This document shows positions 4,821-42,980 of a stretch of 64,000 nt of DNA, piece after piece. A program made the translations under genes and the position numbers. The notes beneath the pieces were generated by a model, which was not told where the DNA came from, did no database searches, and worked only from the letters and a program-made list of their open reading frames with translations. This stretch comes from Liolophura sinensis (lineage: Eukaryota; Mollusca; Polyplacophora; Chitonida; Chitonidae), in the NCBI RefSeq assembly GCF_032854445.1, contig NC_088299.1, positions 3,571,001 to 3,635,000 of the forward strand, read 5' to 3'. Positions within the stretch are counted from its first letter, which is position 1. Each line of letters starts with the position of its first letter.

Positions 4821-5071
4821 TGGACAAGAATAGCATGTTTTCAATTTGCTTAAAAGCTATAGGTTTAGAGAAGCTCAAGTTTATACGAAGAGTCTCCACT
4901 AATTAAGAGAGTTTTAGACCTAGCTTAGAATACTTGTTACCACCTCCTTTGTAGACCACAGATTAGACACTTTCTACGTATAGTTCTGTTGAAGATTTGG
5001 CATTTTCTGCTAACAAAGAACATTTATATTACAGCGTAACATACACATGTATTAACAAAAGCACAATTCAA

Positions 5072-5077
5072 AATAAA
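5072..5077 (+). terminator. Candidate poly(A) signal of the GRL gene
   Basis: An AATAAA hexamer lies about 250 bp after the GRL stop codon and just before the 43-bp minisatellite begins. It is plausible by position only. Confidence 0.35.
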
Positions 5078-5197
5078 CAGTATAAACATAATATCGTACC
5101 GGAAATAGGCCATAATTCGTTCCAAATATCGGGATCCAACAGTTGTCTGCTGCAATAACATCATGTTGTGGAAAATGAAAGAGTATAATGATCGATA

Positions 5198-7660
5198 TTC
5201 TTAGTGGCAAATATGCATTCTTGATGACTGATGTGGCATGGTCCAAGTGGTAAATATGGATTCTTGGTGACTGATGAGATATTGTTGAAGTGGTAAATAT
5301 GGATTCTTGATGACAGTTGTGATATTGTCCCAGTGGTAAATACAAATATGATTGGTGTGATATTGGACCAGTGGTAAATATGAATTCTTGATGTTTAGTG
5401 TGATATTGTCTTAGGGGTAAATATGGATTTTTGGTGATGGGCGTTACATTGTTCGAGTGATTAATGTGGGTTCTTGGTGACTGGTGAGATATTGTTCAAG
5501 TGATCAGTATGGATTCTTGGTGACTGTTGTGAAATTGTCCTAGTGTTAAATATAGATGCTTGATGACTGGTGTTATATTGTTGAAGAGAGGAATATGGAT
5601 TCATGATGGTTGGTGTGATATCATCCTAGTGGTAAATATGGATTCTTGGTGACTGTTGTGAAATTGTCCAAGTGGTAAATACAAATATGATTGGTGTGAT
5701 ATTGGACCAGTGGTAAATATGAATTCTTGATGTTTAGTGTGATATTGTCTTGATATTGATATTTTTGGTGATGGGCGTGATATTGTTCTAGTGGTATATA
5801 TGGGGTTTTGGTGACTGGTGAGATATTGTCCTAGTGGTAAATATGGGTTCTTGTTGATTGGTGTAATATTGTCCTACTGGTAAATATGGACTCTTGGTGA
5901 CTGGTGTGATATTGCCCCATTGGTAAATATGGATTCTTGATGATTAGTGTGATATTGTCCTGGTGGTAAATATGGATCCTTCGTGACTGGTGTAATATTG
6001 TCCTAATGATAAATATGGATTCTTGATGTTTAGTGTGATATTGTCCTAGAGGTAAGTATAGATCTTGATGATTAGTGTGATATTGTCCTAGTGATAAATA
6101 TGGATTCTTGATGACTAGTGGGATATTGTCCTGGTGGTAAATATGGATTCTTGGTGACTGGTTTAATATTGTCCAAGTAATAATTATGGATTCTTGATGT
6201 TTAGTGTAATATTGTTCTAGAGATAAGTATGGATCTTGATGATTAGTGTGATATTGTCCAAGTAGTAAATATGAATTTTTGATGATTAGTGAGATATTAT
6301 TCTAGTGGAAAATATGGATTCTTGATGATTAGTGTGATATTGTCCTAGTGGTAAACATGGATTTTTGATGTTTAGTGTGATATTGTCCTCGAGGTAAGTA
6401 TGGATCTTGATGATAAGTGTGAAATTGTCCTAGTGATAAATATGGATTCTTGATGATTAGTGTGATATTGTACTAGTGGTAAATATGGATTCTTGATGAT
6501 TAGTGTGATATTGTCCTAGTGGTAAATATGGATTCTTGATGTTTAGTGTGATATTGTCCTAGTAATAAATATGGATTCTTAATGATTTGTGTGATATTGT
6601 TCCAAAGGTAATTATGGATGTTGATGATTCGTGTGATATTGTCCTAGTGATAAATATGAATTCTTGATGATAAGTGTGATATTGTCCTAGTGGTAAATAT
6701 AAATTTTTGATGATTAGTGAGATATTATTCTAGTGGTAAATATGGATTCATGATGATTAGTGTGATATTGTCCTAGTGGTAAACATGGATTTTTAATGTT
6801 TAGTGTGATATTGTCCTAGAGGTAGGTATGGATCTTGATGATAAGTGTGATATTGTCCTAGTGATAAATATGAATTCTTGATGATTAGTGTGATATTGTC
6901 CTAGAGATAAATATGGATTTTCGATGATTTGTGTGATGTTGTCCTAGTGGTAAATATGGATTTTTAATGTTTAGTGTGATATTATCCCAACGGTAAGTAT
7001 GGATGTTGATGATTCGTGTGATATTGTCCTAGTGATAAATATGAATTCTTGATGATTAGTGTGATATTGTCCTAGAGGTAAATATGGATTCTTGATGATA
7101 AGTGCGATATTGTCCAAGTAGTAAATATGAATTTTGATGATTAGTGAGATAGTTTTCTAGTGGTAAATATGGATTCTTGATGACTAGTGTGGTATTGTCC
7201 TAGAGGTAAATATGGATCTTGATTATAAGTGTGATATTGTACTAGTGGTAATTATCGATTTTTGAAGATAAGTGTGATATTGTCCTAGTGGTAAATATGA
7301 ATTTTTGATGATTAGTGAGATATTATTCTAGTGGTAAATATGGATTCTTGATGATTAGTGTGATATTGTCCTACAGGGAAATATGGATTCTTGATGATTC
7401 GTGTGATATTGTCCTAGTGGTAAATATGGATTCTTGATGTTTGGTGTGAAATTGTCTTAGCGGTAAGTATGGATCTTGATGATAACTGTGGCATTGTCCT
7501 AGAAATAAATATGGATTCTTGATGATTAGTGTGATATTATCCTAGGGGTAAATATGGATCTTGATGATTAGTGTGATATTGTACTAGTGGTAAACATGGA
7601 TTCTTGATGATTAGTGTCATATTGTCCAGGAGATAAATATAGATTCTTGATGGCTGGTGT
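5198..7660. repeat. 43-bp minisatellite, about 57 copies
   Basis: A tandem array of a 43-bp unit built around 'gatattgtcctagtggtaaa' and 'tatggattcttgatgattag'. The unit is not a multiple of three and no reading frame stays open. Units vary at fixed sites: gattag, gtttag or gactgg; -ggtaaatat or -gataaatat; a 42-bp short form with 'ggtaagtatggatcttgatg'. Longer segments recur: a block at about 5330-5411 is repeated at about 5671-5750, and the variant 'gatgattagtgagatattat' occurs at 6281, 6709 and 7307. This suggests higher-order duplication of multi-unit blocks. Confidence 0.95.
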
Positions 7661-8420: not shown

Positions 8421-9963
8421 CAAAAATAAAACATCATCTCGGCACTTGAGGAGTATGTTAAAAAATGGTCAAAACGGGAGAAAGTGGATTCTTCGGTACT
8501 TAACGATTGGCTTGAGATTGTCAAAAAGAAGGTTAGTTTAACTATAGGCCTACACCGTCTAGATATTGATGCTCTACCTAAAATTAAACAGGTTCTGAAG
8601 CATCCCACTGTGCAAGAAACACTCGCTGACCTTCATAGTAAATTTGTCATCACTGTAGCAGACAAGGCTCCTAATAATGTCATCTTTAATTGCAAGAATT
8701 ATTATTATCAAATTCTTGTTCAAGAGCTATATGCATCTACAACGACATCCACGTATTTTCTGCTACTACATCTACTCTGGAGGAACTATTTAACAAACAC
8801 AAAACCATTTTTAAAGAAAGGCGCATAAATATACCCACCCGTCATACAGAAACACCACAACTTTACTGGATTCCTAAAATGCATAAATCCCCATACAAGG
8901 CTCGATTTATTGCCGGTTCAAGAAGCTGTACCACCAAACTCTTGTCAACCCTACTTACGAGAGCGTTACAAGAAGTAAAGTCATTTTGGAATAAGTATTG
9001 TTGTGTCATAACAAAAAATTCAGGTGCCAATTGCATGTGGATTCTTAACAACTCCAAACGTCTTACAGAAGAACTTGATGCTCATATGCACATACCCTAC
9101 AAAGACGTATCGACATGGGATTTCTCTACTCTGTATACTACGATTCCTCACAAAGATCTTACTGAAAGAATATCGTCGTTAATTGTCTCGGTATTTACTA
9201 AAACAGGTCACCGTTAAATTAACGTCAGAAGCAATAAGGCTTTCTTTAGTTCTACTCTTTATAAAGGTTACCACTCATGGGATGTTACATTATTTATTGA
9301 ATTACTTGAATTTCTCATTAATAACATCTATGTGAAATTCGGAGATACCATTTACCAACAGTGCATAGGTATTCCAATGGGCACCAATTGTGCGCCTCTT
9401 TTGGCACACCTATACCTGTTTTCATATGAATAAGACCATATGTACAAATTACTTAAAAGTAATATCTTTAAATCTCGATCCTTTTCATTTACCAAGCGGT
9501 ATATTGATGAATCTACTGGCGTTAAATAATTCCTATATTGCTGAAGCGGTGAAGGAAATCTATTCGCCTTCATTGGATTTAAAGGAAACAACAGAGAGTC
9601 CTGATGGTACATCTTATTTGGATCTCTATTTGTACAAAGGCGAACAAGGTCTCTTTTCACGCCGCCTTTACGACAAAAGGGATAATTTCAATTTTGATAT
9701 TGTAAATTATCCTTACTTAGATAGCAATATACCAAAGGGTCCTGCATATGGCGTATACATATCTCGCCTTGTAGCATTTGTCAGATCTGGCGTTAATTGT
9801 GATGACTATTCTGCGTCACAAGTTGCTAGTTCAAAAACTAGTTTGTCAAGGATACTCCATCAAACGCCTTCATTCTAAGTTTCTCAAATTTTACAATGAG
9901 TATAACACTCTCGTTGGCAGGTATGGACAGAGCGTTCAGAATCTCTGGAGATCTGCATTGTGA
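8421..9963 (+). mobile_element. Degenerate Penelope-like element, reverse transcriptase region
   Basis: Reading-frame pieces at 8484-8730, 8735-9217, about 9230-9430 and 9475-9960 together resemble a Penelope-like reverse transcriptase. In order they show 'YWIPKMHKSPYKARFIAGS', 'WDFSTLYTTIPH' (catalytic Asp motif), 'GIPMGTNCAPLLA', 'RYIDE' where the family has YxDD, 'SYLDLYL', 'LYDKRDNFNFDIVNYPY' and 'PAYGVYISRLV'. Several frameshifts and internal stops (near 8735, 9215, 9432, 9529) show it is dead, and the second YxDD Asp is Glu. I see no GIY-YIG endonuclease after the thumb region. The element is probably 5'-truncated. Confidence 0.85.
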
Positions 9964-21400: not shown

Positions 21401-24400
21401 GTTGCTTCAACCATATAACTCTTAATTAAACATGCGAAAATATTAATTAGTAGATAATCTCTCTTCCCTAAGTGGCCCTTCAGTAGCCTTCTTATACATC
21501 CTTCATTCAATCACAGCATTTATCGCTACACTGTTGTATCAGACTTTGTATTGTTAACGTAGCTATATATGAGAAATATGTGCCTTGATAAAATTAAGAC
21601 TCTTCCGTACATTTTTGAATCTGATTTCATGACAACTCGATTTAAAGATTATTGAAAACAAAAATTCCACCGTTGTTACTGCTTGTGGGGCATTGGTGAC
21701 TACAAGAGTTTGCGGACGCTCGTGTGGCCTTTGGCGTTGTCAATCATTCGCTGAAAGCGACTTGTCATCCACCAGTATCTCTACGTCACCCGCACCAAAT
21801 TCGTCATTTGTCAAAGATCAGTGGTTTTCTGGTTTCCTCTGCACAGAACGCCAGCGAATATGAAAATAATTCTTGAGTATACCGTTAGCAAACAAACAAA
21901 TAAAATAAATAAATAAATATGTATTAGGCGTTTCTCGCACTTTATTCTAAAGCATTGACCAAGGAACATATCGGAGGTTTGCATCCGACTCGTGTGCAGT
22001 TTTCGTCAGGGGTGTCAGGTACTTGACTTCGTTACAGTAGTTTCTTTCCGAGGGTATATGTCCTTACAAGTTGCAATTGTCATTTTACTGAGTTATCGTA
22101 ACCATTGATTTATGGTTACCACTGAGTTATGATAATCACTGAATTATGGTAACCACTGATTTATGGTAACCACAGTTATGATAAGCGCGACGTTATGAAT
22201 CAGGATTTTTCGAGTCCTTCTTTATCCAGATAAACCCCGGGACATATTCAAAATTATACAAAGTTTGAAACTGGATAAAATTAGATCAATGTACTTATTT
22301 GTTTTCTCCTCAAAATACACGTAACAGTAATCAAATATTTGAAGTCATGGTAACTACGATCTAAATTAAAGACCAATCCTGTGATTTGTAGCTCTTTGCT
22401 ATTCATGCAGGCAGAACTGTAAACACATTCAGAATTGAACAGAATATGACACTGTGGATAAAAATAGACGCACGCACTCAATTGGTGGTCACGTGATTGA
22501 TTTAGTGTTGTGTGTTTGTTTGTGACATTCCTCCACCCCTGCCTTTCCGGTCAGGCTATACACGTGTTCTGGTTGAACAGGTTTAGTTCTGGTTTTCTTC
22601 TTCTTGTGTTCACTGGATAGACGATAAATTATATGGACATCAGAAACACAGAAATACATTCACTTCAGAATGAAAACTCCAGTCTGTGTTGTGTTTCATT
22701 CAGAACTTTCAAAACAACTCATTCTACTCATTTTATTTGTAAATCGATTTGCAACGTTTGTACAAGTCTATAAGTGACCGACCCCTACCCCATAAAGGTC
22801 ATGCCCCTATGTATATACTTTATACCTGCGTACAAATGGTGGTTTGTAGAGCAGGGTTGTTATTATGCCCAATTACTTAGCGCGTAATTCATTTCAGCAC
22901 CTCTCTGATGGGAGGGAATTTTCGTGTATATGCGTGACACATTATGTTTTCAGTGGAGTGCACGCGTGACTTTATCTATGCGTTTTGTAAGGTGTGCCAT
23001 TTTTACATAGTGTGAGTGACACTTTAGCTAACTGGATGGTGTATATGTGTGATACCTTAGTAGATGTGCCAGTTTGAAAGGAGTGTAGAGCTTGTCTGGT
23101 GCCTTAATGTACATGTGTATGTGTGAGGTCTTCGATACCGTTAGATGTAGTAATTTGAAAAGGGGGGAGGGGGAGGGGGGAGGGTCCCTAGGAAGATTGT
23201 GATAGCGCATACATGTATATACTTTATTTGCTGTATATGTTTGATACCTTAGGTGGCTGACTGGAGGTTGTGTATGTGGGATACCTTAGGTAGGTGACTG
23301 GAGGTTGTGTATGTGGGATACCTTAGGTAGGTGATTGGAGGTTGTGTATGAGTGATAAATTAGGTAGCTCACTGGAGGATGTATATGTGTAATTTCTTAT
23401 GTAGCTCATTGGAGGATGCGTATGTGTGATACCATAGGTAGCAGATTGGATTTGTTTGTTTTGTTTTTGTTTTGATTGGTGTTTTACGCCGTACTCAAGA
23501 ATATTTCACTTATACCACGGCGGCCAGCATTATGGTGGGTGGAAACCGGGCAGAGAGCCCGGGGGAAACCCACGACCATCCGCAGGTTGCTGACAGACCT
23601 TCTCACGTACGGCCGGAGAGGAAGCCAGCATGAGCTGGACTTGAACTCACAGCGACCGCATTGGTGAGAGACTCCTGGGTCATTACGCTGCGCTGGCGCT
23701 TTAACCGACTGAGCCACGGAGGCCCCCAGGTAGCAGATTGGAGGATGTGTATGTGTGATACCATAGGTAGCAGATTGGAGGATGTGTATGTGTGACACCT
23801 AAGGTTTCAGATTGGAGGAAGTGTATGTGTGATACCTTATGTAGCGGATAGGAGGTTGTGTATGTGTCATACCTTATGTAGTTGATTGGTGGCTGTGTAT
23901 GTGTGATACCATAGGTGGCTGATTGGTGGCTGTGTATGTGTGATACCATAGGTGGCTGATTGGAGGTTGTGTATGTGTGATACCTTAGGCATCTGATCGG
24001 TGGTTTTGTATGTGTGATACCTTAAGTAGCAGATTGGAAGCTGTGTATGGGTTATACCTTAAGTAGATGATTTGAGACTGTGTACGTGTGATAGCTGATT
24101 AAAGACCGTGAATGTGTGATGCAGGTTACTGCGTATGTCTGATACCTTAGGCAGCTGATAGCTGATTGGAGGTTGTGTGTGTATGGTACTTTAGTTGGCT
24201 GATTAAAGACCGTGTATGTGTGATACCTTTGTTGGCTGATCAGAGGATGTGTATGTGTGATGCTTTAGGCATCTGATTGGATGTTGTGTACGTGTGATAC
24301 TTTAGGCGGCTGATCGGATACTGTGAATGTGTGATATAGTATAGCTATAGTTGACTGAAGTCTGTGTACGTGTGATACCTTAGGCAGCTGATTGGTAGAT

Positions 24401-27400
24401 GTGTATGTGTGATACCTTTTATAGCTGATTGAAGGTTTTGTATGTGTGATACTTAAGGTAGCTGATTGCAGATTTGAATGTGTGATAGAGTATAGGTATG
24501 GCTGACTGAAGGCTGTGTATATGTGATACCTTAGGCAGATAATTGCAGGCTGTGGAGGTAGTATATGCGTGATATCTTATACAGCTAATTGGAAACAGTG
24601 TATGTGTGATACCTTAGTTGGCTAATTGGATGATGTGGATATGTGATATCTTAGGCATCTGATTGGCGATTGTGTATGTGTGATACCTTAGGTTGCTGAT
24701 TGGAGACAGTGTATGTGTGATACCTTAGTTGGCTGATTGAAGACCGTGTATGTGTGATACCTTCGTTGGCTGATCGGAGGTTGTGTACGTGTGATACTTT
24801 AGTTAGCTGATTGGAGACTGTGAGTGTGTAATACAGTATAGGTATAGCTGACTGAAGGCTGTGTGTGTGTGTGATACCCGCATATTGTGATACCTTGGGT
24901 AGTTGATTGGAGGATGTGTACGTGTGATACTTTAGTTGGCTGATTGAAGGTTGTGTACGTGTGATACCTTAGTTGACTGATTGAAGAAGGTGTATGTGTG
25001 ATACCTTCGTTGGCTGATCGGAGGATGTGTAAGTGTGATGCTTTAGGCATCTGATTGGATGTTGTGTATGTGTGATACTTTAGGTAGCTGATTGGAGACT
25101 GTGAATGTTTGATACAGTATAGGTATGGCTGACTGAAGGCTGTGTATGTGTGATACCTTAGATAGCTGATGGGAAGTTGTGTATGTGTGATGCCTTAGGC
25201 AGGCTGTGTATACGTTATTCCTTAGGTATATGATTTTGGACTGTGTATGTGTGATACTTAAGGTAGCTGATTTCGGATTTGAATGTGTGATACAGTATAG
25301 GTATGGCTGACTGAAGGCTGTGTATATGTGATACCTTAGGCAGATAATTGCAGGCTGTGGAGGTTGTATATGTGTGATACCTTAGGTATCTGATTGGTGG
25401 TTGTGTATGTGAGATACCTTAGGTAGCTGATTGGAGGCTGTGTATGTTTGATACCTTAGTTGGCTGATTGGAGGATGGGTATGTGTGATACCTTAGTTAG
25501 CTGATTGGAGGCTGTGGATGTGTGATACCATAGGTAGATGATTTGGGGCTGTGTATATGTGATACCTTAGGCAGCTGACTGGAGACTGTGTGTGTGATAC
25601 ATTTAATAGCTGATTGAAGGTTGTGTATGCATGATACCTAATGTAGCAGATTGGAGGCTGTGTATGTGTTATACCTTAGTTAAAGCTGATTGGAGACTGT
25701 GAATGTGTGATACAGTATACGTATAGCTGAGTGAAGGCTGTGTATTTGTGATACGTTAGACAGCTGATTGGAAGTTGTGTATGTGGGATACCTTAGGCAG
25801 CTGATTAGAGGTTGTGTATGTGTGATAATTCACCTTAGGCAGCTGATTGGAGTTTATGTGTGTTAGACCTTAGGTATAGGCATTAGGATTATTTATTTAT
25901 TTATTTGATTGGTGTTTTACGCCGCACTCAAGAATATTTCACTTATACGACGACGGCCAGCATTATGGGGAGTGGAAACATGGTAGAGCCCGGGGGAAAC
26001 TCACGACCATCCGCAGGTTGCTGACACACCTTACCACGTACGTCCCGATTGAAAGTCAGCATGAGCTGGACTTGAACTCACAGCGACCGCATTGGTGAGA
26101 GACTGAGGGTCATAACACTGCGCTAGCGCGCTAACCAACTGAGCCACGGAGGCTCCCGGCATTAGGATTAGAGGCTGAATGTGTGATATAGTATAGGTAT
26201 AGAAGGCTGTAAGGCAGCTGATTGGAGGTTGTGTGTGTGTGTGATACCTTAGGCAGCTGATTGGAGATTGTGTATGTGTGACACCTTAGATAGCCATTTG
26301 GAGGTTATGTATGTGTGATACCTTAGTTAGCTGATTGGAGGATGTGTACGTGTGATACTTTAGTTAGCTGATTGGAGAATGTGTATGTGTGATACCTTAG
26401 TTAGCTGATTGGAGAATGTGTACGTGTGATACCTTAGTTAGCTGATTGGAGAATGTGTATGTGTGATACCTTAGTTAGCTGATTGGAGAATGTGTACGTG
26501 TGATACCTTAGTTAGCTGATTGGAGAATGTGTATGTGTGATACCTTAGTTAGCTGATTGGAGAATGTGTACGTGTGATACCTTAGTTAGCTGATTGGAGA
26601 ATGTGTATGTGTGATACCTTAGTTAGCTGATTGGAGAATGTGTACGTGTGATACCTTAGTTAGCTGATTGGAGAATGTGTATGTGTACGCTGGTTATTCA
26701 GGATAATGAAGCAGCAGCTGACTGAATTATCGGAATTACCTTATAGGCCTACCTTTACAAAAAATAGGGCCATAAATCAGTGCATCTAGCGCACATAACA
26801 TATAGCTTGACTCTGGTGTAACGCGATGCAGCTGCTGTACCCTAAGCATTAGGTGCCGTGAACTAGTGCCTAATTAAGTCATTAATGGAGCTAATGATTA
26901 CCAGATTATTGTTTACAAATGGTTAATTACCGTATATAGTTTATTATATGACACGCGTGCTGTGATTATCGCTCAAAAGTGTACTAGAATAATCAGCTCC
27001 ATGCCGGCCCAAGCCGGAAGTGTTTTTTTTTTTTTTTTTTTTTCCTGACGTGAAACTGGTAATGTTTAAAGGGGGTGAGTACATGGGCACATACATTCAG
27101 CTCAGTTTCATAGCCCATGTTTACAGTATACGATGTGCATCACTCCTGCCAACTTTTGTTCTGCTTGACAAACAACTTCCTCCCTTAAAAAAGCCCTAGC
27201 AGCCTGCCTTACAGTCTGTTAGTCCGAAAATAGCATATTCTGTACCGGCATAAACCCTGCGCGCGCATCTCTCATGTAACTCCCAGATGTGTTGTAGTCA
27301 TGGCAACACGTTTCTGTGGCATGACTATCGTATGCTTAAATCTGTTCTACATTTGTTCGCTATTATCAAACTCTTTTTTTGTATTTCTATAAATGTCCTT

Positions 27401-35879: not shown

Positions 35880-38800
35880 TCACATGACCTGAGGTTCTCT
35901 CATCTGATCTTCATCCACCATGATGGAGACAATATGGTGGCCTGGAATCATTGCCAAACCTAAGATCCTAGGCTCTTCCTTTTCTCCACTATCTGCAGTA
36001 ACAAACAAAGAAACTTGGAACCAAAGCTTATCTCCCCTTACTATGAGGATTTCAGTCTCAGCATTTGGCGTATGATGAAACGCAGGAATGGAATAAGTAA
36101 TAACACTAATATGAATACAGTAGCGGCTGATTAACACCAGAAATGCTTCTGATATTATTAACCTTCAAATCAAATTTCATTAGATTCAGATCAGGAGTTT
36201 TGGGATATAGCACGGACAAGATTATCACTACATCAAACAGACAAATGGATGAACTTGAAGACAAGACCCAAAAGTTCATCGGCTCTTTCATGCCTTTGCT
36301 ATTAAGAATTAAACTGCTGAAGAAGGTATGAAATACAATTAGACCATGAATAAACATGTACCCTATTCTGACAGTACATTTCATGAAGTTGCCAGACAAA
36401 TTTTTGTAATGGGACATAAAATGCTCCATTAGTTCTGGAGATATGCAGACAAGGTCATACACTTTATAGTGGGCGACAGATGACAAACAGCCAAAACACA
36501 GGATATCTCAATCTATCCAACTAAATAGTTATATATATATATATATAGAACAATATAACAGAACAGTTTGAGTCATTTTTCTGTTTAAAGAAAATTAATA
36601 TAAAAAAGCAATTCATACAAATCATCTAATGTTAAAAGGACATCTCAGCCAGTCACACAAATTGCACGATTCATTAGAGCTCAACAAAAAACATTTGTGT
36701 ATAATATATCTGATCTAAATATTAAACTACTTTGGATTTAAACTGGTGCATTTGAATGATGACATGTAGTAACAGTTTGATTTGATTACTAATATATTCG
36801 CTGGTGTTCTATGTTTTACTCTCTTGGGAGAGGAAAGTGGACGAACTTTCACGAAATCTTCTTGGACAAGGGACATAACTCTTACAGACGAGGCAGAGGG
36901 TATGTAGTTGTCTATTAAAGCAGTCACACTTTAAAGGAGAAGAAAATTTAAATATCAATCAAATACCATTAAAAAGAGTATGCATTTCCTCGCAGGTGCA
37001 TGCCATAAAAAAATTCTAATATGTACCTCAAGCTGATAAATTATAAATAAAGTCAGCGCCCAAATCCGCTGTGGGCGACTCCATTTTGCCTAAGAACTAG
37101 TCCTGAAGTCTTTTGTGTTAGGTAAAGAATTGCCCCCTGAAACCGCCGAAGTGCAGTTCGCACATTTGCGGTTGAACCCTTCTTCCTAGAAAGTAGCAAA
37201 CAGTGCAGTTCGTTTTCCGATTGACGATCAGGAAACCGGAATGACAGACGTAGTTTCTGAGTTTACATGAATGAGCGGGCAGTTTTAACAACAACACACC
37301 CCCAGCATAAATTACAGGGTGTTAAAGATGGGGGACGCGACGGACTCAGGGAGTCAGCTTATGCCAGCTTTGTTCTATTCAGGTTTTATGTGTATGGTGA
37401 GGAAAAATCGCAAAATTATGCAACAGGCACCCACAAATAGAAAGTCTATAGTGTCATCTTTTTATGTTTTCTTCTCCTTTAAGACAACTCATTCACCAAT
37501 GCCAAATGACTGCCTCAAATGGAATTAGACTTACCTAGGGGTTTAAGGTATTCTTCACACGATCCTAGTATGACATTTTTATCTTTATCCGTACACACAA
37601 ACACACCTACAGAAAGAGAAACAGAAAAATAAAATAAAATAAAATGAGGATATTTTTATAAGCAGATTTGGGAAAAACAGATCATGATGAGACGTGTTCC
37701 CGCCATTTTTTGCATAAAGCTACTAAAACTTGCCCCAGTGATATTTGTTCAACAATACATATATGGTCCATTGAAATAGAATAAAATAAAATGAACCATA
37801 AAATTTAAATTTTTACATTCTAAATCAAATTTATAAACACTTTCAAAAATATGTGAAAATATTTTCAAGCATAGTCCTCAGCCGTGTGTCTCATGATCAT
37901 AGATACTATTTTATTTGTATCTTTCTTTGATCTTAATAATGAGTAGCCTTTGAAAAGAAATCTTATGTTCCATACTAGCTGAAGGATTTCACTACATCGG
38001 TCACATCTGGATTCGAACTTAGATCTCAGCAGCCAAAGTCCAGGGCTCTATCAACTGAGCTAAAGGGAAATTCCCACTAGCTACCTCTGGCAATCATATA
38101 AGCACTGAAAGTGCTGCACTTGTTACAGTTCTGCCCACTTAAACCCTTCCCCTTTCCCAGGAAAAAGCACATAGTCTTGAATGCTGAACATTCACCAACA
38201 TAACCAGGAATGTTCAAAAGAGCACAATTATGTGACGTGTCTTAAATAGCTAGTCCACCATAACCATTTCAAGCTATGAAATTCTGTACCAGAGATGTAT
38301 ACCTATCAAAGTCCTCCCATCTGTCATTTCAATCTTCATACTTTTATTCAGCCATTTCTCTAGAGCTTTCCTTCCCGATGGCTTCACTTCATCTGGCTTG
38401 GCATCCTGACAAACAAAAAAAGATTTCTGAACACAGAGAGCATTTTGTTCCTTTACTTGATCATTGTTTAATGCTATACTCAAGGGCTTTTTCACAAATA
38501 TGATAACCATGATAGTGGTCACTTTCATGGCTGGTTGAAATATAGTGCGAGGCATGAACTGAACCATCCACACTGGCAATTTAACAATGAACTTTCCCAC
38601 ACAGTAATGTATGGATTTGCACACCATGGCCTGTGTGGAGTTTGCTGTAACTGCTCACTGGGTAACTACCTGTTATGTTTCCGCATTATTATTAAATGTT
38701 TGTATTATGTTGTTTACAATAATATGTTTTGTGAATGAATGCTCCACTGTTTTGTAATTCGTTTGTATGGGTTATCTCCCCTGTAAATGAACCACTAGAT

Positions 38801-40373
38801 GTCATTACCTGTGTTACTATACCACGAGATTTGCCCTATATAAGGCCGTGTCAAGCTGTACATCAGCAGTTCTTGCAGAGCTCGCTCGGGGAACTCGTCT
38901 CTCTTCCTGAATAAGGATACTGAGGCAAAGTCCTGAATAAGGCCTGGCGGGTATCAAACGAAGCTTACAGCCTGCAGAAGGCTATCGGAGCTTTTCACGC
39001 CAGCTTCTGTCCTGGTTACGAGGGCCGGACCGAGTGCTCACGCCGGTGCGTGTGCATTACTTCTCTGTATATATATCTTCAATAAACTGCCGCAAACTTA
39101 TTCAGTGTGTTCTGGTTCGTCTATCAATCTCGGGAGCCCCTGCTTGAAACAAGTCTGTCCCTGGGATTAAGCTTTATGGACAATCCTTATAATATTGTGT
39201 TACCTGGCTCCGTAACATACCTACATGTATTTGTATCAGTTCGCCGTTTGCTAAGTGCCTTCATTTTTATTTTACAGATAGTAAACTACTGACCGTTTCA
39301 AGTGGTCTATCGGAGTTTCTTCTACAATTGCACGCAGTGAGACTAGTCACATCTGGATTAGACCTGCCTTTAAAACACATATTTGACAAGCTGCCACTGC
39401 AAATGCATGCAGTTTTTAACTGGATGGCACTCTGATACTGGTTTGGGGCCATCCTTGCGAAACCTAACGTCATCTCGGACAACATGGTCAATGGCATCAA
39501 TAACAAATAAACAATGAGGAACTTTTGACATGCATAAGCAAAGGCGCTCAAAACAAGCCCATATATGTAGGAAGTAAGGGTATGAAACAAATTTCGGCCA
39601 GCAGTATCCAATGTTTCCAAAATTCAAGAAATAAAGCCTTTAACTGCCAACTTTTCCACTCATTTCCCTACCTGGAGACATCTGTTTGAATCCACAGTTA
39701 CTATTCAGTGGCACTTATACAACATATGCCAGGTGAGCCCATAAGATATCAGTGGTGTCCACGTGCCACCTTGCTCAGACTATAAATTTGTTTCTATTGG
39801 ATTTGACTGCTTTTGTGAGTGAAGACTGTATAATTCATAAATGATCACCCTCACATTTCGTTCAAACAGTACCATTCATCACAGTGAAAGGTCAAATTCT
39901 GAACAGAAACACAAATTGCCCATGCTCTAAATATTCCATTTCATTTCAATATTTTTGGTCTTCGACATGTTAAGATTTTTATTAGGCCTATGTAGGCAAA
40001 TCTTGCAAGTTACCAAATCCCACATTGTGAAATCACAGGTGCTTGCCATTGCAATCTGACATTTTCTGAATTCAATGTACCGTTGCCACTGTGCGGCAAG
40101 CGCTGGGTTATTATGCTCGCATGATCTCACACTGGCGCTTGCATTTGCACTGTACTGTTAGGGGCGTACAACAACAACGCATATGTAGGCCTAATGTGCG
40201 ATATGCTAAGACAACAAGGCAAAAATAGGGTCAGTTCTCGCATGGTATAACTATAATATATAGCCATGCTGACAAAAGGTAGAGATTAAATGTTCAAGGG
40301 ATTACGAAACACGCATAAACATGTACCACATTGTAGAAAAACACGCACTTACAATGCCACCTTCTCCAGCCAT
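35880..40373 (-). CDS. NAA38: N-alpha-acetyltransferase 38, NatC auxiliary subunit (LSMD1), 4 exons
   Basis: Minus-strand exons in coding order are 40353-40373 (MAGEGGI), 38303-38405, 37535-37606 and 35880-35992, totalling 102 aa. Intron phases are 0, 1, 1, and every junction has a clean GT–AG pair. The protein carries the Sm-like fold: MTDGRTLIG (Sm1-type strand), CTDKDKNVILGSCEEYL, then PRILGLAMIPGHHIVSI (Sm2-type), the same order as human NAA38 (about 125 aa). In the NatC complex with NAA30 and NAA35 it helps acetylate N-termini beginning with Met plus a hydrophobic residue, on cytosolic ribosomes. The N-terminus is shorter than in human. The gene is divergent from CYB5D1, with about 0.3 kb between them. 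Intron 1 holds a solo LTR. Confidence 0.95.
37985..38065 (-). mobile_element. tRNA-like SINE head in NAA38 intron 2
   Basis: On the minus strand 'tttagctcagttgatagagc' (A box) and 'aagttcgaatccagatgtg' (B box) have tRNA-like spacing. The anticodon arm does not pair well, so this is more likely a SINE head or tRNA pseudogene than a tRNA gene. Confidence 0.5.
38671..39217 (+). mobile_element. Solo LTR, 547 bp, with 4-bp target-site duplication
   Basis: Begins TGTTATG and ends CGTAACA, a near-perfect terminal inverted pair. It is flanked on both sides by 'tacc' (38667-38670 and 39218-39221). Inside are a TATA box (TATATAAG at 38837-38844), a GC-richer stretch compatible with R/U5, and a poly(A) signal (AATAAA at 39081-39086) in the order expected of a + strand LTR. 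No internal coding region or second LTR is present, so it is a solo LTR left by recombination. A 4-bp duplication fits Ty3/Gypsy-type integrases but is not decisive. Confidence 0.85.
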
Positions 40374-40690
40374 ATTTCCGTTCTGCGGCTGTCTGCTAAG
40401 TGCGAATAAATTCAGAAAAACATCCGAAATACACTGTTAACACAGGATTAGCAAAGGAACACAAAAAGTGATGCCATTCTTTGCTTTACTAATATATCTG
40501 AATGATTTTTATAAGGCTACATAACAAGAAATAAATACTTAGGTAGCTTTGTTTCAATATTTATTTAAAGTCCGTTTCCGAATTAATTTTTAAGATTTGA
40601 CATTTTAGTGAATATGCGCGTACAGGCCAGCCATTTTGGTTGACATTGGCAACGGGGATGCGAATGGAAGAAATAAGTCTGCAAATTTAG
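40374..40690. promoter_or_regulatory. Bidirectional promoter region of NAA38 and CYB5D1
   Basis: About 317 bp separate the NAA38 start codon from the first CYB5D1 coding sequence, and the two genes are transcribed away from each other. No TATA box is evident on either side. A shared control region is inferred from geometry. Confidence 0.6.
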
Positions 40691-42980
40691 TTGGGGGCTC
40701 GCGTTGTTTCTCGCCATGGGTCGATCAAGTACTTCTCCCCAAACGAAGTTGCAACTCACAACACAATTGATGATCTGTGGGTTTCATTTTTAGGGAAGGT
40801 TTACAACCTTACGCCTCTATGTGAACGATACAAAGGTTGGTATAGAGCAACTGTTTGTTGTTGTTGTCATGCAGTTGTGATTTTTTTTTCAGTGACAGTT
40901 AATGTAATGGCTACAACTCAAGGCTAACAACAATGCTATTCTTTTTATGGTTGGTTAAGAAAAGATATTGTATCATGTTATGACAGTTTGCTTTTTCTCC
41001 AGATGTCTGTTTTCTGTATGGTTTCCTAGATCTCCGTGTTTGTTGTTTTCCTGTACTCAACAGTGTGACAGTTTGTTTCTTTAACGCGATATTGGGTGTT
41101 TACATGTTGCAGCATTTTCTGCACACTGTTTTCTAACTTCAGTACTCGAAAGTCTGCAGCTGGATCTGTCAGAAGTTTTAACACGATTATAAGTTAGTAA
41201 CATAACTGCTAATTAACTATTATGTTCTTCATAATAGAAGAAAAATAAGCAAAACCCCAGCCATACCTTAATGTATGCATGTGTTTTGTATGGGAGATGT
41301 TGGTTGTGTCATTGTAAATTAACATTACCGCTGATCCTACATGTTTTCTGTTGATGGATCAGATCGATAGGTCATATACATGTATATAATGTATATGATG
41401 TAAAATTTTACATACTTGATCATTTATTTTGTCAGCTCTGCTTTTTCTGAAATTGCTGTGACGTTAGGTTTAGCAAGATTTTATTTGCCCAAGGAAGACA
41501 GTACAGAGCACATTCCATTCAAAAACCTGATGAAAATTCTTAGAAGGATTTAATTCATGTGATCCAAATCAGTTAGTCAACTTTAATGGGCAGTTGTTGT
41601 TTTACATATATGTTCAGATCAGTTTTTTTACCTTTTTTTAACGCAGTTAATCTTATTTGTGATTTCAGGAGATGTGCTCTTAAAACCAATCATACTAGCT
41701 GCAGGGACAGACATATCACATTGGTTCAACCCAAAAACGAAAGATGTGAGTTTCATTTTCTTGACCACTGATTTCATTTCTATTATATTTTTGAATTCAT
41801 GGAAACTGTGGAAAGTTTTGTGACAGTTTGTATTAATATGCGAGTATATGCCAATAAATATAAATGAAGTGTTAATAGAGCAGGCAGTATTGATTCTTTT
41901 TAACTTGGGCTAGTGCGTTTTGCATGTAAAATTTTTTTGACATAAAATTGTATTGATCATGGAGGTTAAATTACTCCTCTGCTTTTCAGTATTATTACCA
42001 ATAGTTGATTTTTTATATAATATTTGATTTTTGGTGGCAGATACGAACCTATGTTGACCCTGAAACTGGCTGTACCATTCCCTATTGTCCAAACGGGAGG
42101 TTTGTCCATATTCCTCCTCCCTTCCCCTCCACGGAGTGGGCACCAGATTTCGGCCGTCCATGGTGGCGAGATGACTCCTACCTTGTTGGCACACTCTCCA
42201 AGAAAACACGCAGTATTAAAATCATAAACACGTTAACCTCCCAGGAACAGGTCATAGAGGTATGCCATGACACATTTTTCTATTTTTAACTGAAATTGGC
42301 CTATGCTCTTCAAAATAATCAGGCCGTAAGTGGGAAGGTCTTCCAGCAACGTGCGAATGGTCGTGGGTCTTGCTGGTCGCCGTCGTCCAACTGAAAATAT
42401 CTTGAAACATCAATCAAATAAATCAAAATAATCCTGTGTCTAAGGGGAGATAATTACATGATACATGTATACCCTATGACAAATTTGGTGGTTATCAACA
42501 GAAAATGAGTGATTTAACAGTTTCATCAAAAATTTTGATGAAAGTTACTCTCATTGCTTGAATGGGTGTGTAATATCCCTTGAAAATGTCATCTTCAAAA
42601 TGATGTTGCGAATATATTCCTGTGTGTACATGTATTTATTATCATATATATGTATGAAGAATTTTCCAAAATCAAAAAAGTGATGAAGTGAAAAAATGAA
42701 GTGATGATTGCAGTATGCTGAATGTGAGTTACAATTGTTTTGCTGTCAGGTATGCTCAGAGGAAAACATGGAAGAGATTTTAGACAGGTATCTCAAATAC
42801 AATGCTCATGCTGGGAGCTACACATGGAAGTATGACAGAGTGAATCTTAGCATGAATAAGACGTTAGAAGACAATGGAATTCCAGACGAGGATGAAGATT
42901 TTTACACGCTCCGTATGAACGATGACACCTTTCTTCAAACAATACATCTGTACTTCAATGATGATTTAACAGAAGCCTGA
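40691..42980 (+). CDS. CYB5D1: Cytochrome b5 domain-containing protein 1, 4 exons
   Basis: Exons are about 40691-40835, 41669-41745, 42041-42259 and 42750-42980, with phases 1, 0, 0 and clean splice sites, coding about 223 aa (human 228). It shows [24 protein letters not shown] and [10 protein letters not shown] (b5 haem-binding region), then [40 protein letters not shown] and the C-terminal [10 protein letters not shown], all in family order. Known role: CYB5D1 is an axonemal radial-spoke-associated, redox-linked protein needed for normal ciliary beating. Oddity: no ATG lies in frame in exon 1, whose frame is closed by a TAG at 40688. A well-placed ATG (gccATGG at 40716) is one base out of frame with the conserved sequence. 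An upstream first exon, or a one-base deletion in the assembly, could explain this. Confidence 0.93.
42323..42432 (+). mobile_element. SINE family 1, 3' fragment in CYB5D1 intron 3
   Basis: A decayed family-1 body ('gtcttccagcaacgtgcg', 'aatggtcgtgggtcttgctg') with an (AAAT)n tail lies between CYB5D1 exons 3 and 4. Confidence 0.7.

Follow-up and report, generated by a model that had tools for sequence, protein, structure and literature searches.

The locus described here raises two questions about neighbouring genes of the chiton Liolophura sinensis, NAA38 and CYB5D1: whether they were inherited as a pair from an ancestor shared by molluscs and mammals, and if so, why they have stayed joined. 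The window analysed, that is, the whole stretch of 64 kb, corresponds to positions 3571001–3635000 of contig C5, and all feature positions below are window coordinates. NAA38 (minus strand, 35880–40373) and CYB5D1 (plus strand, 40691–42980) lie head to head in it, with four coding exons each, and 35880–42980 is the exact span from the stop codon of NAA38 to the stop codon of CYB5D1. NAA38, whose older name is LSMD1, belongs to the N-terminal acetyltransferase NatC as an auxiliary subunit; CYB5D1 is a radial-spoke protein of motile cilia. Both are protein-coding genes on opposite strands, forming a divergent pair, and the same two orthologues are adjacent in gene lists of mouse and cattle. The pair belongs to a known kind, the conserved divergent gene pair, of which it is a good but unexceptional case, newly documented here.

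The head-to-head arrangement at a spacing of about 0.3 kb, proposed in the initial annotation, was reproduced by the gene models, which gave 317 bp between the ATG of NAA38 (40373) and the reading frame of CYB5D1 (40691), and the identities of both genes were confirmed by PDB matches. Measured to the first aligned residue of CYB5D1 (40727), the distance was 353 bp; the two coding starts are about 0.32–0.35 kb apart, the ATG of CYB5D1 being missing. The intergenic block between them (40374–40690, 317 bp) is the presumed shared promoter region. All internal exon boundaries of both genes carry GT/AG, and the reading frames are continuous across them.

Coding exon 1 of NAA38 (40353–40373, minus strand) comprises seven codons, with the start codon at 40373 and the donor GTAAGTGC; it splices in frame to exon 2 and is too short for matching against PDB or the chiton's own genome. 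Exon 2 (38303–38405), exon 3 (37535–37606) and exon 4 with the stop codon (35880–35992) are each supported by splice sites, frame, PDB match and own-genome match. The product has 102 amino acids and an LSM domain (Pfam PF01423). Its best PDB match was the NAA38 chain 7mx2_C (E 6.2e-31), which we take to be human NAA38, followed by the spliceosomal Sm B-type chain 8ro0_b (E 1.1e-13), under which the more distant NAA38 chains 7l1k_C (3.2e-10) and 6yga_C (4e-4) were ranked. An LSM domain together with an NAA38 chain ahead of other Sm/LSm proteins places the product in the NAA38 family. Own-genome searches covered the 632 contigs of the assembly (609,464,459 bases), in which NAA38 was single copy, with one locus; the sole other match, on contig C9 and 46% identical, was taken for Sm B. 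Intron 1 contains, as judged by eye, a probable solo long terminal repeat at about 38671–39218, which starts with TGTTATG, ends with CCGTAACA, is flanked by TACC repeats and includes TATATAAGG and AATAAA. At least 50 matches to it were listed in the genome, and 11 other near-full-length copies had 86–95% identity.

The four coding exons of CYB5D1, on the plus strand at 40691–40835, 41669–41745, 42041–42259 and 42750–42980 (the last with the stop codon), are all supported by splice sites, frame, PDB match and own-genome match, the 5' limit of the first being provisional. PDB matches were the CYB5D1 chains 9fqr_G0 (E 5.7e-87) and 8j07_Z (2.2e-85), together with 7jtk_k (2.7e-63) and 9e5c_4o (1.4e-62), the first three aligning over residues 13–222 of 223. 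Identity was 61% to the aligned part of 9fqr_G0 and 52% to that of 7jtk_k, presumably a Chlamydomonas chain. With a cytochrome b5 domain (PF00173) and a full-length match to CYB5D1, the product belongs to this family, and it is also encoded at a single locus of the assembly. Mouse Cyb5d1 has been fitted in the radial spokes RS1 and RS2, as reported in PMC10774353.

The start of CYB5D1 is the incomplete part of the model. After the TAG at 40688–40690, exon 1 has no in-frame ATG ahead of the aligned KYFSP, the frame being otherwise open, and the sole well-placed ATG nearby, at 40716 (GCCATGGG), is off by one frame (+1). A complete frame from an ATG was therefore not obtained, which touches the gene model and not the family identity. 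An assembly error or an allele is to be considered as the simplest cause, a missed 5' exon as the next, and non-ATG initiation as the last. The assembly was built with 14x HiFi data, at a heterozygosity of 1.24%, according to PMC11068029.

In human, NAA38 and CYB5D1 are presumably divergent as well. Their adjacency in mammals, which the initial annotation had put forward, agrees with the gene lists of mouse (PMC4978889) and cattle (PMC7764440), where TMEM88, NAA38, CYB5D1 and CHD3 are given for the Trp53/TP53–CHD3 region, and in PMC5081712 a single human site with differential methylation carries the joint label 'CYB5D1;LSMD1'. With the 28,010 protein-coding genes stated for the chiton genome (PMC11068029), a named gene would lie head to head beside another by chance with a probability of about 1/28,009 × 1/2 = 1.8e-5, and common descent is therefore by far the better account. 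A separate coming together of NAA38 and CYB5D1 in molluscs and in mammals would fit the different genes immediately flanking the pair in each; given the above probability for a named pair, such a coincidence is extremely improbable. The match between chiton and mammals implies that the protostome–deuterostome ancestor had the pair, which probably formed before molluscs and vertebrates diverged. Of the earlier proposal of a long-kept pair with a constrained promoter, the deep conservation is likely from this match, whereas the constrained shared promoter is a further step that we infer.

 A scan of prokaryote contigs with CYB5D1 returned nine loci with short cytochrome b5-like matches (query residues within 4–80), all from bacterial records, and no eukaryotic CYB5D1, and none of the 52 stretches of viral contigs that fitted a pattern encoded a relative. 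In the literature searched for CYB5D1 with LSMD1, NAA38 or bidirectional promoter, no treatment of the two as a pair was found; supplementary lists, outside that search, may already contain it.

The neighbours of the pair are not those of mammals. The left-hand neighbour, on the plus strand, is sepiapterin-reductase-like by weak matches: one frame showed adh_short just below the Pfam cut-off, another matched sepiapterin reductase (E 0.001), and two further frames had no Pfam match, one of them also having no PDB match. The right-hand neighbour, on the minus strand, belongs to the TOP6A/SPO11 family (PF21180, E 1.1e-27); its PDB matches were topoisomerase VI subunit A, and the name SPO11 is our choice. 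Both flanking genes point at the pair, so that the junction on each outer side is tail to tail, and 40374–40690 is the sole head-to-head stretch at the pair. Beyond the right neighbour, Pfam identified a RING/B-box/NHL protein encoded by a single exon, together with a vanin-type hydrolase. In mammals, by comparison, the flanks are TMEM88 and CHD3.

Four families of the mammalian neighbourhood were sought in the chiton genome, and none was found on C5: a gene of CHD3/4/5 type and an intron-split p53 family gene were located on C9, and POLR2A and TRAPPC1 on C12. The CHD and p53 families expanded in vertebrates and are for this reason not one-to-one tests of linkage, as POLR2A and TRAPPC1 are. 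A second Sybindin match, on C9 and 0.3 Mb from p53, appeared at first sight to be TRAPPC1; judged by its sequence it is rather TRAPPC4, both names being tentative. As far as tested, the pair is an island rather than part of a conserved block. Either the two genes moved together, or their neighbours were replaced through chromosome fusion and mixing, and in both cases the breaks fell outside the pair.

The intergenic region is not a CpG island. Over 40374–40839 it is AT-rich, with a GC content of 38%, and its observed/expected CpG ratio is 1.02, the mean for the window being 0.77; 20% of sub-windows reach such a value. Two YY1-like motifs occur on the minus strand, AATATGGCTGG over the start codon of NAA38 (40366–40376) and AAAATGGCTGG at 40627–40637, each with one mismatch to the consensus used. 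Two in 272 bp compare with 14 in 64 kb on both strands, or about 0.06 expected; the Poisson probability of at least two is about 0.002, a value that ignores the post-hoc choice of the motif. An X-box-like (RFX) site with a 3-base spacer, GTTGACATTGGCAAC, is present on the plus strand at 40639–40653, also with one mismatch to the consensus used, and ends 37 bp ahead of the CYB5D1 frame. By simulation, 0.021 such sites are expected per 340 bp, and five were counted in the 64-kb window. Among 25 partly overlapping loci scanned, one (L023) contained an X-box-like site with at most one mismatch. Ciliary genes have been predicted from RFX sites, though CiliaCarta suggests that gain and loss of these sites may be frequent (PMC6522010).

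Taken together, these data are best explained, with good though not full confidence, by an ancestral divergent NAA38–CYB5D1 pair with a shared block. The last ancestor shared by molluscs and mammals would already have had NAA38 next to CYB5D1, most likely in head-to-head orientation, and the two genes would have stayed joined while those on either side changed. A single open intergenic block of about 0.3 kb most likely launches transcription both ways, the shared start region probably acting as a general promoter on the NAA38 side and receiving an additional ciliary input on the side of CYB5D1. Were this block broken, one of the genes, both of which are needed, would be left without its promoter, and selection may have acted against such breaks. 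Loss of a promoter on breakage would explain the retention of the pair with no functional link between the proteins. The reason for retention is the least certain part of this explanation.

Several points weigh against it. The lineages compared were this chiton and mammals, the latter through gene lists and with a presumed orientation of the two genes. The YY1-like and X-box-like motifs were chosen after the sequence had been seen; the X-box-like site is off consensus and would arise by chance about once per 50 such blocks, and a 14-base palindrome with at most three mismatches was not found in the intergenic block. A control with four ciliary genes (CFAP20, IFT20, BBS5 and IFT57) gave no support and was uninformative: start codon and promoter were placed in none of the four, and the control loci with N-terminal exons (L007, L012, L018 and L024) contained no X-box-like site with at most one mismatch. 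PMC3403606 repeats that conservation of bidirectional pairs is confined to vertebrates and that bidirectional linkages became disorganised between invertebrates and vertebrates, to which the chiton–mammal pair would be one exception. Finally, exon 1 of CYB5D1 has no start codon, so the true promoter might be elsewhere. The gene could start with an extra upstream exon in intron 1 of NAA38, in which case the genes would overlap and the promoters would be separate. Besides the missing ATG, this arrangement is favoured by six in-frame spliced combinations, with starts at 39967, 40194 or 40203, obtained in a scan of 39219–40720 for donors matching at least seven of nine positions. All six, however, have donors at just 7/9 of the consensus and pyrimidine-poor acceptors (6–7 of 13 positions), and a one-base assembly error or an allele near the ATG at 40716 is simpler; we regard the extra exon as improbable.

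Two other explanations concern only why the pair is kept, and both are compatible with an ancestral pair. The pair may be held by nothing, having survived by chance, with breaks made rare by the short spacing. The 317 bp are indeed a small rearrangement target, and co-regulation was an unlikely driver of pair persistence in the analysis of PMC3403606; the outer genes nevertheless differ from those of mammals, and the four families of the mammalian neighbourhood are on other chromosomes, which indicates that rearrangement occurred beside the pair. Such passive survival is a possibility to be taken seriously, although we do not favour it. Alternatively, and in line with the shared regulation suggested in the initial annotation, both products might be required at once, ciliated cells or sperm being examples, and the shared promoter kept for their co-expression, as the head-to-head arrangement and the X-box-like site in the block would allow. 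NatC and radial spokes have no functional connection known to us, which speaks against this need. The same analysis argues against co-regulation as the driver, describing it as more a consequence than a reason for the persistence of pairs (PMC3403606), and retention for co-expression is accordingly rated as a slim prospect. A bolder form of the preferred explanation, an ancestral pair with a shared block, would have a two-mode promoter predating the protostome–deuterostome split, with a ciliary RFX input built into a housekeeping YY1-type promoter, and the pair moving between chromosomes as an inseparable cassette; this is speculative and considered rather unlikely.

Divergent pairs are widely documented. 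In amphioxus, 25% of neighbouring genes are divergent, and 372 bidirectional promoters are putatively ancestral (PMC6292497). As in the chiton, the chordate promoters of that study involve two protein-coding genes placed 5' to 5' at a short distance and inferred to be ancestral, and a YY1 motif was tied to some ubiquitous amphioxus promoters, YY1-like motifs being present in the chiton block. The chordate cases were defined by CAGE or microsynteny, whereas the chiton pair is known from sequence and its comparison is between a protostome and a deuterostome. Divergently paired genes make up about 10% of human genes, head to head and usually within about 1 kb (PMC3815023); CYB5D1 and LSMD1 are not named in the main text of that paper. 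For Drosophila, 32.2% of genes in divergent pairs is the figure quoted in PMC4773876. That co-regulation keeps such pairs together is disputed in the literature. A further close likeness is the NAA38–CYB5D1 of mouse and cattle (PMC4978889, PMC7764440), with the same two orthologues side by side; there, TMEM88 and CHD3 take the place of the sepiapterin-reductase-like and TOP6A/SPO11-family genes of the chiton.

Elsewhere in the window, no tRNA was detected with ARAGORN and no Rfam family reached its gathering score. A single-exon open frame of 401 amino acids at 1437–2642 has hydrophobic stretches and is gustatory-receptor-like by eye, with no Pfam match. Long repetitive tracts at 5052–6301 and about 23000–26300, which on the minus strand resemble degenerate peptide repeats, are probably tandem repeat DNA, and open frames at 8430–9878 resemble by eye a fragment of a Penelope-type reverse transcriptase.

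The genome search for p53 revealed a separate feature of this chiton. In addition to the intron-split family gene (C9:25208960-25211637, L004), 18 p53-family genes were found in which a single open frame spans the DNA-binding domain, 16 of them in two tandem arrays (arrays and single copies labelled L001–L003 and L035–L039). The array on C7 (C7:9947472-9979088) contains nine genes at a spacing of 3.4–4.0 kb, and that on C1 (C1:22524557-22542500) seven genes at about 2.85 kb; the single copies are at C6:26920599-26921606 and C6:27813258-27814214. On C7, seven of the nine frames have at least 450 amino acids and are mutually 96–99% identical; on C1, six of the seven have at least 358 amino acids and are mutually 95.9–100% identical, the copy at 22541424 having 377. 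Identity between groups was 49–60%. The C6 copy at 27813258 has, by eye, a likely upstream exon and would so not be wholly intron-free. The amplification looks retrocopy-derived and comparable to that of elephants, whose TP53 retrogenes are reportedly a known parallel. No chiton case was found in a literature search for p53 amplification, and the term p53 is absent from the main text of the chiton genome paper (PMC11068029). These arrays are rarer and more striking than the NAA38–CYB5D1 pair and deserve their own study.

For the pair itself, pairs that outlast half a billion years amid changing neighbours reveal the short intergenic stretches in which breaks are not tolerated. With two single-copy genes and 0.3 kb between them, NAA38–CYB5D1 is simple to test, and it can separate retention by a shared promoter from retention by shared function because it joins a general gene to a cilium gene with no known shared task. 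If the two-mode promoter proved true, the position of a cilium gene would be governed by an unrelated acetyltransferase gene.

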